From a virus, in IMG/VR virus record IMGVR_UViG_3300031857_001066, positions 1 through 28,034 of that record: a stretch of DNA of 28,034 nt. One strand, written 5' to 3'. The position numbers and the translations under genes are program-made. The notes under the pieces were generated by a model. The model ran no database searches, had not been told where the DNA came from, and saw only the letters and a list, made by a program, of their open reading frames with translations. Shown here one piece after another: positions 3,818 to 25,851 of the stretch (position 1 is its first letter; each line of letters starts with the position of its first letter).

Positions 3818-5302
3818 TTAGTTTAAATAAAAGTCAATTTTAGGATAAAAGTAATTATCGGATACATAGTTATAACCCGTAATAGTCATATGAGTTTTAT
3901 CAGCACCGTAATAAATTGTATTTCTTTCTCCTACTCCGTTAACTCCATAGCTATCAACTCCTACTATACTATCGCCACCAACGTCTATTAAATCGGTTGC
4001 AAATGTGGTGTAATTGTTTCTTATTCGTGTGTTAAGTTCTTGTCTTAACGCTGGAGTCATGTAATCTCTTGGTAAGCAAGTACCAACTAAAATAATCAAA
4101 TCATTACCATGTATAGCTTTTGCTTGGTTGCAGTAATCAACTAAATGATTATAAGCACTGTCTACATTTTGACCTCCTAAATAAAAATCGTTTGTTAACT
4201 CCCAAACTACTAAAATCTTCTTAGTGTAAATATCCGATTTAACCTTACCTAATGTATTCGGGAAAGCATAGTACATTTCGTTCGTTCTTATTCCTACTTT
4301 AGCCTGACAAACCTCGTTAACATAGTTAGTACTTCCGTAATTCCTTAACGCTCTATCAACCCAATAAGCCGCCTTTGTTAGGCTATTGCCATCTATCATT
4401 AATAATTTACTTGGTACACTACCAGCATAACGCCCCCAAATATTTAAACCGTTAATTACTTCTAACTGATTACACTTTGCACCAAAGAAAGCACCCGAAA
4501 TAGTTTTATTAGAATACCCACTAAATACACCATTTACGTTCTTACAAAATAAATATACATTTTGATTAGGAATACTTGCACTTGCTTTTGCTCTTGGTAA
4601 TTTAGTTATACTTACACCGTTCTTTAAACTTTCGTATTCACTTGAATTAACGCGAGTTGAAACGTGCCATCCATAGGCTTGTAAAATTGGAGAGTAGTAT
4701 AAATCATTTGAATTGTTGCATAATGTTAGGACTGATTTTGGAATATTATTATTTTGTAAATAAACATTCAATCCATTGCTTGTTACGCTTTCAGAACTTA
4801 AATCAACCCTGCTTTGTGTTTCATTTGAATTAATATAAATACCCTTCATGCAATTATTTAACGTGTATAAAGTACTGTTGTAAGGATTGTAATTGGTGTT
4901 AATTTTAAATGTTGTACCGTTGCCATCAAAACCTTTGTATGGGATAAAACTACCTGCATAATCGCCTGAAATAGTTGCTATATGTTGCGGGTTTTTCCAA
5001 TTAACTAATGCTGCGATTTTATGATGAACATCAAACTTAAAAATACAGTCCAACGAATCCCAAACACCTTTTGCAATTAGATAATCAATTGCTTCGGAGT
5101 ATTTGTCTTTATCCTGTGCGCTTGCTGAACATCCTAATGAATCCCATTTATCAAATAATGCTTGTGCAGGACTTGAATAGGTTCGGAACGATTGTGTTAA
5201 TACTGTTGATTGTTCAGCTTGTGGTTGAACGAACTGTTGCTCTTTTTGGCATCCTAAAAAGGCTAAAATTGATAGTGCCGAGATTAAAAATAGTTTTTTC
5301 AT
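3818..5302 (-). CDS. Lipoprotein-type SGNH/GDSL hydrolase with appendage-like domain
   Basis: This 494-aa protein starts with a lipoprotein signal peptide (MKKLFLISALSILAFLGC), with lipidated C18. The next residues, QKEQ, resemble the surface-export signal of Flavobacteriia lipoproteins. Residues of about 80-290 resemble the domain of many phage fibres that begins with a LDCIFKFDVHHK-like strand and a GFDGNGTTF motif. The C-terminal third is an SGNH hydrolase: block I DGNSLT (S307), block II G337, block III LTND (N371) and block V DKTH (D468, H471). SGNH enzymes remove acetyl or acyl groups from polysaccharides. Its position after the tail fibres suggests capsule or LPS deacetylation. A lipid anchor is odd for a virion part and suggests display on the infected cell. 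Enzyme class is firm, site of action inferred. Confidence 0.82.
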   Translation of the reverse strand: MKKLFLISALSILAFLGCQKEQQFVQPQAEQSTVLTQSFRTYSSPAQALFDKWDSLGCSASAQDKDKYSEAIDYLIAKGVWDSLDCIFKFDVHHKIAALVNWKNPQHIATISGDYAGSFIPYKGFDGNGTTFKINTNYNPYNSTLYTLNNCMKGIYINSNETQSRVDLSSESVTSNGLNVYLQNNNIPKSVLTLCNNSNDLYYSPILQAYGWHVSTRVNSSEYESLKNGVSITKLPRAKASASIPNQNVYLFCKNVNGVFSGYSNKTISGAFFGAKCNQLEVINGLNIWGRYAGSVPSKLLMIDGNSLTKAAYWVDRALRNYGSTNYVNEVCQAKVGIRTNEMYYAFPNTLGKVKSDIYTKKILVVWELTNDFYLGGQNVDSAYNHLVDYCNQAKAIHGNDLIILVGTCLPRDYMTPALRQELNTRIRNNYTTFATDLIDVGGDSIVGVDSYGVNGVGERNTIYYGADKTHMTITGYNYVSDNYFYPKIDFYLN

Positions 5303-15768: not shown

Positions 15769-16878
15769 TTATTTTTGTTTTTTATAAAATTCGTTATACA
15801 TATTTTCGTAAGTTTCAGGAGATGAATTACGGATTACTTCTAATCCTTTTGCATCTTTCTTTTCCCAATCTCTAATAGTCCAAGAAGAACGGTCTTCTGA
15901 ACCTTTCTTTGTTACTACGTTTTTAAAGTCAAATACCTTTACTGGCTCTTTAACAGATTGTTTTGATAGCATATTTTTAACTGCTTCAAAATTCACTTTT
16001 GCCAATTCAATTGTAGCTGCTTTGTCTTCTTCTTTTACATTAAAAGAGTTTACCATTTCTTCGATAGATGCAAGTTTATGTGCTTCTTTCTCAGCTTCGA
16101 TAGTTGTTAGTTCAGCTTCTTTTGCTGCTAACTCAGATTTAATTCTCTCGTTTTCAGCTTGCATTTCTTCAAGTGAATTTTTCAACTCACTAATTTTAGA
16201 TACTACAATTTCTTCGCTTGAATTTTCATCTAATCCTAATTTGTTTGTGATTAAATTCATTTGTTTTTTCGGGTTTATTAATTTATTATAAATTAAAGCC
16301 ATGTTGTATAGGCTTTCACTGGTATTCATTTTGATTTTTTTGCCACTTGATACAATAACATCTACCATTCCTTTTTCTTTAGCAGTCTTTGCATCTAACC
16401 ACGTTTCAACATCCATCATTTTAGAAATAGTATCTTCATCTTGTGAAGTTCTATTTTTTAAAACAGTTACTAATGTATCTTTCACTAAATTAAGAACAGC
16501 TTTGTCAGAACCTCCGCTTGGATTGTGTAGCATTAATGTACCGTAATCCATCATATAAACCTTTTTACCACACATTGCAATAACTCCTGCAATTGAAGCT
16601 GCTAATCCATCTACATAAGTATCAACTGGAATAGCACTATTTAAAATTGAGGATATAATAGAATAACCATCCATTACATTGCCTCCGATTGAATTTATAC
16701 GAACATTAATTTTGCTACACTTATCTTGTAAGTATTGCATTTCGTATGCAAAATAACTGCCATCAATACCATAAGTGATATTCCCATTCTCATCAACAGA
16801 ACTACCTATTTGGTTGTATAATAAAATAGTCGCTTCTGAATTATCGTCTGCTATATTTTTTATGTACTTAAATTGCAT
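15769..16878 (-). CDS. Head maturation protease (ClpP/S14-like) with scaffold-like C-terminus
   Basis: Residues of about 15-185 form a ClpP-like serine protease: INSIGGNVMDG, then the nucleophile in GLAASIAGVIAMCG (S95), H118 in MLHNPSGG, and a likely acid D162 in WLDAKTAKEKGMVD. Residues of about 205-290 are a coiled coil (ISELKNSLEEMQAENERIKS and onward), which suits scaffolding, and the end is charged. It should shape the prohead and then cleave scaffold. An ATG at 16260 (M207) lies exactly at the border and could start a separate scaffold, as lambda Nu3 does within C; this is inference. The gene shares its upstream region with the divergent regulator promoter. Confidence 0.88.
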   Translation of the reverse strand: MQFKYIKNIADDNSEATILLYNQIGSSVDENGNITYGIDGSYFAYEMQYLQDKCSKINVRINSIGGNVMDGYSIISSILNSAIPVDTYVDGLAASIAGVIAMCGKKVYMMDYGTLMLHNPSGGSDKAVLNLVKDTLVTVLKNRTSQDEDTISKMMDVETWLDAKTAKEKGMVDVIVSSGKKIKMNTSESLYNMALIYNKLINPKKQMNLITNKLGLDENSSEEIVVSKISELKNSLEEMQAENERIKSELAAKEAELTTIEAEKEAHKLASIEEMVNSFNVKEEDKAATIELAKVNFEAVKNMLSKQSVKEPVKVFDFKNVVTKKGSEDRSSWTIRDWEKKDAKGLEVIRNSSPETYENMYNEFYKKQK

Positions 16879-16903
16879 AATACAATATTAATTATTATAT
16901 TTG
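16872..16903 (+). promoter_or_regulatory. Promoter of plus-strand cassette, TTG-N20-TATATTTG
   Basis: TATATTTG (16896-16903) is a perfect TAnnTTTG -7 box. ATTG at 16872-16875 gives a -33 box with a 20-base gap, close to the Bacteroidota consensus of TTTG and 19 bases. It overlaps the start of the protease gene on the other strand. Transcription should start near 16910, before the ATG at 16943. It is the only strong plus-strand promoter I found next to a matching gene. Confidence 0.75.
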
Positions 16904-16915
16904 CTCCAATTATTC

Positions 16916-16932
16916 AACTGTAACAGTTTTAA
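16916..16932 (+). promoter_or_regulatory. Candidate operator of the RHH regulator
   Basis: AACTG-TAA-CAGTT (16916-16928) is a perfect 5-base inverted repeat just after the predicted start of transcription, and is followed by TTAA. The word TGTAACAGTTTTAA (16919-16932) recurs exactly at 23785-23798, upstream of the head operon. Position and symmetry fit autoregulation by the ribbon-helix-helix protein encoded next. This is inference. Confidence 0.4.
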
Positions 16933-16942
16933 AACAAACAAC

Positions 16943-17194
16943 ATGAAATTTGTAACCGACTTTGTAGGACTAAGATTAAGGCTTAGCGAAAAACTTAAAT
17001 TAAACTACGTTAAAACAACAACGTACTTATCTTCAGAAACTAAAAACAGATTCCTAAACGATTGTATTTATCGTGGTGTTAGAGAATCCGACTTAGCAAG
17101 GGAAATAATTAAAGCACATTATAAAGTGTTAGAACAAAATAACATTAAGGCAGGAAAACCTTTTTGTGAAATAATTAAAGAACTGAAAAAATGA
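16943..17194 (+). CDS. Ribbon-helix-helix (Arc/MetJ-like) DNA-binding protein
   Basis: This 83-aa basic protein begins MKFVTDFVGLRLRLSEKLKL. The central part has the ribbon-helix-helix pattern: strand KTTTYLS, helix SETKNRFLNDCIYRG, turn VRES, and second helix DLAREIIKAHYKVLEQ (about residues 21-60). Such dimers bind operators by the strand. The frame is open upstream to a TTG at 16901, but that lies in the promoter, so I chose the ATG at 16943, which has an AAAACAAACAAC leader. Its stop overlaps the next start (ATGA). It lies on the plus strand in the middle of minus-strand structural genes. It likely regulates its own cassette and perhaps others. Confidence 0.78.
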   Translation: MKFVTDFVGLRLRLSEKLKLNYVKTTTYLSSETKNRFLNDCIYRGVRESDLAREIIKAHYKVLEQNNIKAGKPFCEIIKELKK

Positions 17195-17316
17195 AATACC
17201 TAATATCAGTTGATGGACGTTCTATTTACAGTACAATAACTAACAAAGTGGTAATTACATTCCCTAAAGGCAAAGAGTTATACGCTCGTGCTTTTTGTGA
17301 GTGGTTAAATAAATAA
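17191..17316 (+). CDS. Hypothetical 41-aa protein of the plus-strand cassette
   Basis: The ATG overlaps the stop of the RHH gene (ATGA), and the frame ends with TAA at 17316. The product begins MKYLISVDGRSIYSTITNKV and ends FCEWLNK. It looks like a small beta-rich domain with an amphipathic last helix, and no signal peptide. Translational coupling suggests a partner of the regulator. No family is recognised, and it is too short to assign a role. Confidence 0.6.
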   Translation: MKYLISVDGRSIYSTITNKVVITFPKGKELYARAFCEWLNK

Positions 17317-17320
17317 AACT

Positions 17321-17479
17321 ATGAAAAAACTATTATTAATTTTTGCAAGCACTATACTTATTGCTTGTGAAAAAGACGAACCAATACAACCTGAGCCAAA
17401 TATAAACCTTACAGATTGGGCAAATTATGGTAACACTACGTTTCAAGTAGATACAACTATAATATACACTAATCCATAA
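17321..17479 (+). CDS. Small lipoprotein, possible surface or exclusion protein, 52 aa
   Basis: MKKLLLIFASTILIAC is a classic lipoprotein signal with a perfect lipobox (LIAC, C16). The next residues, EKDE, match the K-(D/E)2 type of surface-export signal known in Flavobacteriia lipoproteins, so the mature protein of 37 residues may be displayed on the cell surface. It is proline- and asparagine-rich and acidic (PIQPEPNINLTDW). Small phage lipoproteins such as Llp of T5 block receptors or exclude other phages; lambda Bor is another lysogenic lipoprotein. The gene follows the 41-aa gene by 4 bases and is followed at once by the terminator. Lipidation is strongly predicted; the exclusion role is inference. 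Confidence 0.75.
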   Translation: MKKLLLIFASTILIACEKDEPIQPEPNINLTDWANYGNTTFQVDTTIIYTNP

Positions 17480-17481
17480 AT

Positions 17482-17515
17482 AAGCCCCTCGCAACCAATC
17501 AAGGTGGAGGGGCTT
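17482..17515. terminator. Bidirectional terminator between convergent units
   Basis: AAGCCCCTC (17482-17490) pairs with GAGGGGCTT (17507-17515) over nine base pairs, GC-rich, with a 16-base loop. It is 2 bases after the lipoprotein stop and 23 bases from the end of the fibre gene on the other strand (17539). In the minus direction it is followed by ATTTAT, in the plus direction by GTAAC, so it should work best for the minus strand but may stop both. Confidence 0.8.
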
Positions 17516-17538
17516 GTAACGAGCAGAAAACTAAAAAA

Positions 17539-18396
17539 CTACTCGCTAATTCTTTTTGCTGTAAAATATACAACATAAGCTAACACTTGTGCTGTATCTT
17601 GTATTGCTTTTAATTCGATATAATCAGTACTCCCATTCAATAGGACTATGTAAGTTCCCGATGCGTGTCTTGTGTCATCTGAGCCAACATAATCACTTAC
17701 ACCGCCAATAGTTCTAACAGTTGAACCATTCTTTTGTATTACTAATTGATTTGTAGTTGCACTAACAGCACTGCCAGCATTTAAAATATAATGTGCTGAT
17801 ATTTCATAATATCCCGATTTAGTTGGCAAAAATCTGCCAGTAGCACCATTTAACCACCCATTAGGGTCTAATTCATCTGTTGATAATGGCAGTGTTGTAG
17901 TTCCAGTTGCACTTGAACCTGAGTAAGCCCCTTGTGCAAATGTTCTATAAAAACTATCTTGTGCAAAATCTAAATCATCATAATCAAAATCAGCAGAACC
18001 ACTAACACCATCACTCAATACAATTGTTTGTATTCTATGTACATTTCGTGCTATACCATCCGTAAATGTAACTGGGTCTATTGATGTATCATAAGTTACT
18101 GTGATAGTTCCAATAACATCATTTACTGGAGTTCCACTATAACCCGAGCAATAGTACATTTGCCCATCGTAAAAAATCCATCCTTCAGGAATAACATAAG
18201 CAGGAGGCGTTCCAGTATTTCTTAATCCACTGATTGCATAGAAACCTAATCCGCTATAATTCCTATCGCCTATAATTGACTTACATACACTATCAAATAT
18301 GTTAGTATAACTGTTTTGTAAGAATTGTAACGACTTACCAGTAAAAGGTTGCTGTATGTTCGGGTCGCTAATAGCACTTGTTAAAATTGTATTCAT
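17539..18396 (-). CDS. Tail fibre with C1q/TNF-like C-terminal domain
   Basis: This 285-aa protein begins MNTILTSAISDPNIQQPFTG. Its N-terminal region (about 1-110) includes AYVIPEGWIFYDGQMYYCSG, a pattern of phage fibre or baseplate attachment parts. The last 100 residues (about 185-285) have the C1q/TNF jelly-roll pattern: GRFLPTKSGYYEISAHYIL, LVIQKNGSTVRTIGG, GTYIVLLNGSTDYIELKA and VVYFTAKRI. Such trimers bind receptors. The gene is the last of the head/neck operon before the terminator. The start is 5 bases after the preceding stop. It is a second appendage, separate from the one at 5321-6277, which suggests two receptor-binding systems. Confidence 0.7.
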   Translation of the reverse strand: MNTILTSAISDPNIQQPFTGKSLQFLQNSYTNIFDSVCKSIIGDRNYSGLGFYAISGLRNTGTPPAYVIPEGWIFYDGQMYYCSGYSGTPVNDVIGTITVTYDTSIDPVTFTDGIARNVHRIQTIVLSDGVSGSADFDYDDLDFAQDSFYRTFAQGAYSGSSATGTTTLPLSTDELDPNGWLNGATGRFLPTKSGYYEISAHYILNAGSAVSATTNQLVIQKNGSTVRTIGGVSDYVGSDDTRHASGTYIVLLNGSTDYIELKAIQDTAQVLAYVVYFTAKRISE

Positions 18397-23805: not shown

Positions 23806-25240
23806 CCTTACTGTTAAATGTGTTTTTACCTATTGTCCTACTAACTGGATTGCGTCCATGTTGATACATTGAAAACTCGGTACTGAATGCAGCACATAAA
23901 AAATAGTCCATACCATCGGTAAAATGTCCGTATTTCTCATAACTTACTCCACTTTCCTTATCCTTTGTCTTTTCCTTAAACTTTGTACCATCGCTATCTT
24001 CTTTTAAGAATAGCAAGTCATTTATAGTTAGCTTACACTTATCGGATATTAAAACATTAACACCCTCAAAACCCTCGTAAAATACTGAATTAATAAAATT
24101 ACCACGTACAACTACTGGGGGGTGCTTACTTAATACCCTGCTAACTGGTCTATAATCTTTTAACTGTAATTCGATTACCTTATAATCGTTGTGTCCTTTT
24201 TCGCTTCGTGTATCCTCGTTCTTACCACTTGGGTCGCCATAAATAAATAATCCTGCACTATGGCTCATGTATCTACGTGTAAACTCATCACAAATACCCT
24301 TTGTGTTGTTATAAGGACTTGCACACGCTATTTCATCAATACAATAAGCTACCTTGCCGACTATTTGCCACACCGTAGCAGTCATGTAAGGATTGACGTT
24401 AAAATCGAATGTTAAATGCAATGCTAAGTCAGGATTGTAACCTATTACATTAGTTGTATTTTTTGCCCTATCAAATAACTTGTAAAATAGACCGCCCGAC
24501 TGTTTATTCCCCCAGTACCCCAAACAGTAAATAGTATAATAATACGGATTCTTAATTTGTAAGTCCATTAAGAACGCTACAAATGTATTAGGCAACCATT
24601 TATTATCTTTATACCAACTATGGTGTACTGTATATGTTAAATCTACGCTTGTGTTATCATCTATCTTTAACGGTGTAACGCTACTAAAACTACGCTCTAC
24701 TTTATCGCCAAAGAATCGTTTATAAAACCAGTGGTCTTTATAATCTCCCTCAACTTCGGGATTAATACTAAAAATCTCTTGTAAATACTCAGCTTTTTGA
24801 GTTCGAATAGAGGTTGTTATAGTAATAAAGTCATTTTCTGTTGGTATATCTTCTTCATACCATACAGCAGAGGCATCTTTAATCGACTTTAATTTAGTTG
24901 TATCATCGCAACCTCTCGCAATGAACATATTGCCATTTTTACAATGTATTTCTAAAGGTTGTAGTTTAAATTCAAATAGGTCTTGAAGTCCTAATGTGTA
25001 GATAGTATCTTTTAAGTTCTGATAACTACTATCTTTTATTGATGAATAGGTATTTCTTACTAATATACATCTGAAAAAGTCCTCACTTAAACATCTATAA
25101 ATCATTTTTTTAGCGGCAAAGTCAGACTTAGACGAACCACGCCCACCATAGAGAATTAAGTATCTATCTTTATTCTCTACAAGCGGTATAAATGATTCGT
25201 TTATTAAATACTTCCAGTTGCACCACTCTACATTATACAT
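23795..25240 (-). CDS. Terminase large subunit
   Basis: This 481-aa packaging ATPase-nuclease has all main motifs: Walker A GGRGSSKS (residues 32-39), Walker B AVWYEE (125-130), and nuclease acids in LTFDFNVNP (D279), LFIYGDPSGKNEDTRSEKG (D336), and a late aspartate in FTDGMDYFLCA. It belongs to the Terminase_3/PBSX-like group. It translocates DNA through the portal and cuts it at start or end of packaging. It starts at a TAATG junction with the GIY-YIG gene, so expression may depend on reading through the homing endonuclease. It ends inside the upstream region of the head operon. Call is firm. Confidence 0.95.
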   Translation of the reverse strand: MYNVEWCNWKYLINESFIPLVENKDRYLILYGGRGSSKSDFAAKKMIYRCLSEDFFRCILVRNTYSSIKDSSYQNLKDTIYTLGLQDLFEFKLQPLEIHCKNGNMFIARGCDDTTKLKSIKDASAVWYEEDIPTENDFITITTSIRTQKAEYLQEIFSINPEVEGDYKDHWFYKRFFGDKVERSFSSVTPLKIDDNTSVDLTYTVHHSWYKDNKWLPNTFVAFLMDLQIKNPYYYTIYCLGYWGNKQSGGLFYKLFDRAKNTTNVIGYNPDLALHLTFDFNVNPYMTATVWQIVGKVAYCIDEIACASPYNNTKGICDEFTRRYMSHSAGLFIYGDPSGKNEDTRSEKGHNDYKVIELQLKDYRPVSRVLSKHPPVVVRGNFINSVFYEGFEGVNVLISDKCKLTINDLLFLKEDSDGTKFKEKTKDKESGVSYEKYGHFTDGMDYFLCAAFSTEFSMYQHGRNPVSRTIGKNTFNSKVKY

Positions 25241-25851
25241 TAGGCATAGATAAAGTTTGTATTGTTAATCTTACTTCCATTTAACCTACCCTTGAGTGTA
25301 TTATAGTTTAATCCATATAAATTAGAAACACTTTTTAATGAATCATAGAACACGCCAGTTGCGGTATCTAATACAACCTTATTGTTATAATAAAGGAAAT
25401 TTGGATTATTTTTAGCTAAATCTCTAAATACTAATAACTCTTTTTCAGAAAACACCTTATTGCTATATAAATTAACCATAGTAGCTTTCTGTTTTTCAAC
25501 TACACTATTAGGTCTTTTTTTGCCTCTCAACGAATTAGCTATCTTTTGCTTGTGTTCATCTGTTAATAAACTTGAACGTCCACCATAAGCTAAATTAAGA
25601 CCATCATTTAGAGAATTAAATTTATTTATATAATAAACCTCTAAATCGTTTAGTTCACTTGCTAAACACTTATGTATTATCTCAAATGAATGAGCGTCCC
25701 ATCCGTATTTTTTAATAGAATTTAGTATCTTAGTCTGCTTTTTACAATTAGCCGACTTGTATTTATAGAGCCTCTTTTCAATCTCTATGCTTTGTCCTAT
25801 ATAAACTTTACCGCTTGGGTTGGTAATTTTATAGATTCCTACTGTGTACAT
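25240..25851 (-). CDS. GIY-YIG homing endonuclease between terminase genes
   Basis: This 203-aa enzyme begins MYTVGIYKITNPSGKVYIGQ. GIY (5-7) and YIG (17-19) are at the correct distance, R27 follows in EKRLYK, and E71 lies in LNDLEVYYINKFNS. The C-terminal half has DNA-binding NUMOD repeats: TDEHKQKIANSLRGKKRP (NUMOD3, about 97-114) and a NUMOD1-like end (LKSVSNLYGLNYNTLKGRLN). It is a free-standing homing endonuclease, now sitting between small and large terminase genes, joined to the latter by TAATG. The target may be a terminase allele without it. Identification is firm. Confidence 0.92.
   Translation of the reverse strand: MYTVGIYKITNPSGKVYIGQSIEIEKRLYKYKSANCKKQTKILNSIKKYGWDAHSFEIIHKCLASELNDLEVYYINKFNSLNDGLNLAYGGRSSLLTDEHKQKIANSLRGKKRPNSVVEKQKATMVNLYSNKVFSEKELLVFRDLAKNNPNFLYYNNKVVLDTATGVFYDSLKSVSNLYGLNYNTLKGRLNGSKINNTNFIYA

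Follow-up and report, generated by a model that had tools for sequence, protein, structure and literature searches.

A conserved gene for a probable RHH-type regulator, with a replaceable cargo slot, beside the head protease gene of uncultured, probably flavobacterial phages

Why should a phage that keeps nearly all of its genes on one strand place a short run of genes on the other, between a head gene and a tail gene? The window (the whole stretch of DNA analyzed here, 28,034 bases long) is a virus fragment of 33% GC whose genes, nearly all on the minus strand, include those for a terminase, Mu-type portal, minor head protein, head protease, capsid, sheath, tape measure, and baseplate, several of them named by eye from reading frames. 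A plus-strand cassette of three genes sits between the head protease gene and a tail-fibre-like gene, both on the minus strand. The first-pass annotation read this cassette as a moron with its own promoter and terminator, ending in a surface lipoprotein that suggested superinfection exclusion or lysogenic conversion. The cassette itself is real. All three open reading frames are present, the first two overlapping through ATGA (17191-17194) and the third following after a 4-base gap (17317-17320), and purifying selection acts on all three genes. It was also rightly called the sole plus-strand unit: the 28-kb fragment holds no other plausible plus-strand genes, and its remaining plus-strand reading frames of at least 60 aa overlap longer minus-strand genes. 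The features of the locus are as follows.

15769-16878, minus strand: head maturation protease gene, the divergent neighbour (Pfam CLP_protease, 1.4e-21; PHROG head maturation protease, 2.7e-43)
16873-16903, plus strand: predicted Bacteroidota-type promoter of the unit, by motif; TTG (16873-16875), N20, TATATTTG (16896-16903), predicted start about 16908
16883-16890, minus strand: candidate -7 box of the head-protease operon, from relatives; TAATATTG, differing from TAnnTTTG at one position and set back to back with the box on the plus strand
16916-16928, no strand assigned: operator-like dyad AACTGTAACAGTT, +9 to +21 of the predicted start, from conservation of GTWAC
16943-17194, plus strand: gene for an 83-aa, probably RHH-type DNA-binding protein, core gene of the unit, from its retention in relatives and an AlphaFold model
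17191-17316, plus strand: gene for a 41-aa protein, accessory by comparison of relatives
17321-17479, plus strand: gene for a 52-aa lipoprotein (mature part CEKDEPIQPEPNINLTDWANYGNTTFQVDTTIIYTNP), accessory, predicted surface-exposed; lipobox LIAC, surface signal 17366-17380
17480-17517, no strand assigned: GC-rich hairpin between the lipoprotein and fibre genes, probable terminator (dG -23.1 kcal/mol, z -5.2)
17539-18396, minus strand: tail-fibre-like gene running towards the cassette; an identity map shows its 3' half (tip) exchanged among relatives

Elsewhere on the minus strand, the gene at 930-1454, late in the gene order, reads by eye as an SPFH/prohibitin-type membrane protein, and, again by eye, those at 2215-2685 and 25240-25851 resemble homing endonucleases (HNH and GIY-YIG) among structural and replication genes. 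A 494-aa lipoprotein encoded at 3818-5302 (minus strand) has a weak GDSL-lipase match (E 0.0027), and its signal, CQKEQ, misfits the surface-export rule discussed below.

A search with the protease returned 9 loci and a search with a protease alignment 62 viral loci, 54 of them readable, that is, with enough sequence upstream of the protease. These belong to uncultured phages that probably infect flavobacteria. On the opposite strand, 51 to 75 bp from the protease start, an RHH-type gene is found in 52 of the 54, and it is retained down to 51% protease identity. In L076 the gene is broken by apparent frameshifts; in L067, the only such relative among the 54, the whole unit is absent, with no regulator and no -7 box, and the fibre gene stops 33 bp before the protease. 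One viral hit, L014, came up in the RHH scan apparently by chance, as its sequence has no such unit, and the only RHH relatives found among described phages were insignificant Klebsiella matches. Between the window and the close relative L007 the RHH gene has a dN of 0.005 and a dS of 0.23 (dN/dS about 0.02), and in RHH-only loci dN/dS is about 0 to 0.05 between close pairs, the most diverged pair reaching about 0.27. Because strong purifying selection persists even in the 25 loci with nothing behind it, the RHH gene is, as judged from these comparisons, a core gene of the group and not a moron, and the unit as a whole does not behave as dispensable. In five contigs (L059-L063) the protease frame itself is odd, with no ATG, GTG or TTG before the conserved FKYIKN (in-frame codons TAA TTT TGT TAT ATC GAA AAT TTT AAA), possibly reflecting a non-standard start.

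The 83-aa protein has no Pfam, PHROG or NCBIfam match, and the case for the RHH type comes from its alignment and its model. An RHH-type protein should have a beta strand, two helices and alternating DNA-facing strand residues, and the two sources together give this pattern. Across 23 aligned members a strand (positions 22-29) precedes two helices, with DNA-facing residues at 24 (K/R), 26 (T, invariant) and 28 (mostly Y or R). The AlphaFold model (mean pLDDT 81) places helices at 32-44 and 48-65 after the strand region, in strand-helix-helix order, the strand staying unpaired in this monomer model. About half to most of the PDB fold matches of the model are RHH proteins (MatP, VapB, ParG, CopG, ParD, TacA), none with an E value below 0.7 and none significant. 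We assign the protein to the RHH type with good, if not final, confidence.

The intergenic region points to what such a protein might do. The first-pass annotation had proposed a Bacteroidota promoter for the unit, and a predicted one is indeed there: TTG-N20-TATATTTG fits the flavobacterial consensus, whose TAnnTTTG occupies -12 to -5 in F. psychrophilum (PMC9723704), and L005, L006, L007 and L008 (51% identical) share the TTG-N20-TAnnTTTG spacing. Just past the predicted start, all 30 distinct intergenic sequences have a GTWAC core, where shuffling would give 3.6, and it lies mostly 15 to 16 bases past the -7 box. In 19 of the 30, the two bases on each side are symmetric, yet they differ between groups, the dyad reading AACTGTAACAGTT in the window and AGTGTAACACT, TAGTAACTA or TTGTTACAA in other groups, and the flank type tends to track residue 28 of the RHH protein. 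As RNA the dyad does not fold (z 0.3). Two further copies in the window are at chance level. A second box faces the other way: CAAAnnTA-N3..16-TAnnTTTG occurs in 27 of the 30 sequences, where about 0.001 would be expected per sequence, though the 30 are related to one another, so that neither these counts nor those of GTWAC are independent. Taken together, the pattern suggests an autoregulator that faces the head operon.

The acr-aca operons of Pseudomonas Mu-like phages (Aca1, JBD30) offer a parallel, with a small autoregulator, an inverted repeat at its own promoter, and exchangeable accessory genes (PMC9410906); in the present phages autoregulation would be of the same kind. Those operons differ in that their regulator is HTH rather than RHH and comes last rather than first, and here the unit lies on the opposite strand. 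The cargo here is also predicted to be exported, which argues against an intracellular CRISPR inhibitor.

One could go further and see the protein's main task in switching late genes through the divergent head-protease promoter, with the cargo merely using the plus-strand promoter. The back-to-back boxes speak for this, above all in L008, which keeps them though their distance to the start codon differs, as do the lack of such a box before the protease of the unit-less L067 and the persistence of RHH-only units. So does the site in Winoviridae. In the flavophages FPSV-S1 and lotta8-1 an opposite-strand pair adjoins the protease in the same place and direction, again with a small DNA-binding-type gene first, but that gene is nonhomologous, HTH-like by eye rather than RHH (no Pfam match), its 166- to 169-aa partner is not exported, and the promoter-proximal repeats are others. 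That unrelated genes of DNA-binding type occupy one position is an argument that a regulator is needed there. (In the gap before this pair, both of these phages, at loci L015 and L016, carry direct repeats, GTCTTTA-4 nt-GTCTTTA, 11 bp apart and overlapping a TAnnTTGY box.) Against a switch that acts mainly on the head genes, no conserved -33 element precedes the protease on the minus strand, the window's own minus-strand box carries its mismatch, and read-through from upstream could serve the head genes. In most sequences the predicted head-operon start would fall on the protease start codon itself, giving a leaderless message; this is a prediction only, and its unusual position speaks against the reading preferred below. 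We regard a switch acting chiefly on the head genes as possible but doubtful.

What lies behind the regulator varies far more than the regulator does. Cargo types could be read from the relatives, a few loci being too short to tell. Besides the loci with nothing there, 19 carry a 170- to 204-aa protein with a Sec-type signal peptide (read by eye) and one a 65-aa membrane protein; the lipoprotein occurs in the window and in two loci, as a homologue in L006 and nearly identical in L018. L007 has the 41-aa gene alone, and L005 has a 54-aa gene followed by noncoding DNA; in L005 and L006 an unrelated 50- to 54-aa protein takes the place of the 41-aa protein. The 41-aa gene has a dN/dS of about 0.25 (window versus L007) and the mature lipoprotein one of about 0.09. 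Comparison with related phages therefore upheld the moron label only in part: the unit has its own predicted promoter, and its downstream genes, the lipoprotein among them, come and go between close relatives, but the RHH gene, present at this site in almost every readable relative and often without cargo, does not fit the label. The noncoding stretch that replaces the lipoprotein gene in L005 (5190-5535, minus strand) runs for about 350 nt without a plausible gene and contains a long hairpin, AGCAGAGTCTA...TAGACTCTGCT (z -3.2), with no Rfam match above threshold.

The lipoprotein carries the lipobox L-I-A-C followed by C-E-K-D-E, with C-S-K-D-E in the L006 homologue. Both agree with the optimal surface-export signal C-X-K-(D/E)2-X defined experimentally in Capnocytophaga, while the consensus derived for F. 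johnsoniae in the same study was SDDFE (PMC5080379), so that the fit is to a related family member and not to Flavobacterium itself. The earlier reading of a perfect lipobox followed by residues resembling surface export signals of Flavobacteriia is borne out to this extent, and the lipoprotein is probably accessory and surface-directed. It has no relatives in described phages; 22 of its residues (LTDWANYGN.TF) match inside a phage fibre-like protein (L087:1588-1662, L088:2726-2800), which we judged a chance resemblance. With the signal peptides of the longer proteins, the cargo appears to be envelope-directed in almost every phage that has any. By eye, a C-terminal segment common to the exported cargo recalls a T9SS sorting domain; however, no NCBIfam model for such a domain matched in 12 members, and the predicted structure was of too low confidence for use (pLDDT 48).

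The claimed terminator stands less squarely. A strong hairpin is present, and its stem is kept with changed bases in L005 and L006, but it lacks a U-run on the plus strand. A U-rich tail lies on the minus strand, clearest in L006 (GUUUUUAU), which makes the hairpin a probable terminator at least as fit for the fibre-gene strand.

The lipoprotein gene ends next to the fibre gene, and changes in the two coincide. L007, close to the window (96% DNA identity in the RHH gene), lacks exactly the lipoprotein gene, keeps the hairpin, regulator and protease, and has another fibre gene. The regulator, second gene and fibre start of L006 are close to those of L005 (83 to 86%), and its mature lipoprotein and fibre tip to those of the window (86% and 80%, respectively). 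L005 lacks the lipoprotein and carries another tip. Both losses of the lipoprotein (L007, L005) coincide with a changed fibre tip, and L006, which kept it, has a tip that is still window-like. Such joint change allows a receptor-blocking role like that of T5 Llp; it also fits simple linkage, and adjacency alone could produce it. Across the whole set the association of cargo with fibre tip is weak (partial r 0.10, permutation p 0.04), and a strict pairing fails: L027 and L069 share 92% of tip residues and only one of them has cargo. A C1q-like hint (E about 0.05) appears solely on the fibre tips of relatives.

T5 Llp and Cor of the T1 group are likewise small phage lipoproteins; the gene here adjoins the fibre gene, and its product, like them, would act in lytic growth. 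Llp alters the receptor FhuA such that the receptor-binding protein no longer binds (PMC9586334). It does so from the periplasm, in hosts of another phylum, whereas the window lipoprotein has a surface-export signal. We found no sequence relationship, the one match being PHROG 1119 (Cor) at E 0.41 over residues 1-34, mostly signal peptide.

Lysogenic conversion found no footing. Ten contigs, several of them fragments, contained no integrase, and two scans of 84,980 bacterial and archaeal genomes, with the protease and RHH alignments, revealed no relatives within their reach. Phages of this group are probably lytic, as the more distant pippi-group phages have been described to be (lytic only; PMC7077304). 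Superinfection exclusion is possible, because the cargo appears envelope-directed in almost every cargo-bearing phage and the lipoprotein was lost only together with a changed tip.

The reading we prefer, at about even odds (roughly 0.5), is a core regulator with a replaceable cargo slot. Comparison of relatives gives the conserved place, regulator and control region, and from these we infer that the RHH-type protein binds the GTWAC-centred dyad just past its own start and represses itself. Since the same small region seems to carry the head-protease -7 box, the regulator may also time head-gene expression, of which we are less sure. Comparison likewise gives the variable cargo and its export signals: genes behind the regulator are lost or exchanged, and cargo of any size would go to the host envelope. 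In the window the cargo would be the 41-aa protein and the lipoprotein, the latter most likely made during lytic infection, reaching the cell surface, and masking or altering the receptor of the neighbouring tail fibre. A bolder version makes the RHH protein the late-gene switch of a large uncultured flavobacterial phage group: placed where two divergent promoters overlap, it would silence its own antisense unit and switch on the head operon, and that unit would also encode an exchangeable surface protein that blocks the receptor and is matched to the neighbouring fibre tip; this we consider speculative and distinctly doubtful.

That the entire three-gene cassette, regulator included, is a dispensable add-on inserted in a late operon seems unlikely. 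The unit's own predicted promoter and hairpin, the variability of the lipoprotein and second gene, and L067, where fibre and protease genes close up, would suit such an insertion, but a regulator kept in 52 of 54 relatives, and alone under strong purifying selection in 25 loci, would not. RHH antitoxins commonly precede overlapping toxin genes, and the ATGA overlap recalls a toxin-antitoxin or anti-defence operon with the 41-aa or 50- to 54-aa second gene as toxin or inhibitor; with RHH alone in 25 loci, second genes unrelated between close relatives, and no PADLOC or Pfam match, this is quite improbable. Outer spanins are common among the small lipoproteins that phages of Gram-negative hosts encode, but a lysis or virion role for this one is the least probable of all, as its gene is cleanly missing in L007 and does not lie beside the endolysin- and holin-like genes at 3.2 to 3.8 kb.

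Two other systems resemble the preferred arrangement of core regulator and cargo slot. In the immI region of P22 (arc, mnt, sieA), RHH regulators and a superinfection-exclusion gene also lie among late genes. A description of P22 sieA is available (PMC10883804). P22 is temperate, however, and its immI controls an antirepressor; none of these was found here. The second system is that of the variable T9SS cargo genes of a cryophage that infects Bacteroidetes. Their secreted products are exchangeable, carry recognized T9SS sorting domains, and have been proposed to act in exclusion or competition (PMC7468147), whereas the exported cargo of our relatives resembles such a domain by eye only.

Little is known of late-gene control or competitor exclusion in Bacteroidota phages. 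At this site a core regulator and a candidate operator come with a cargo slot in which proteins predicted to be directed to the envelope repeatedly turn up. The comparable gene pair at the same site in the cultured lytic Flavobacterium phage lotta8-1 makes the regulatory idea accessible to laboratory work. If the preferred reading is true, screening the slot would be a direct route to the exclusion proteins of Bacteroidota phages.
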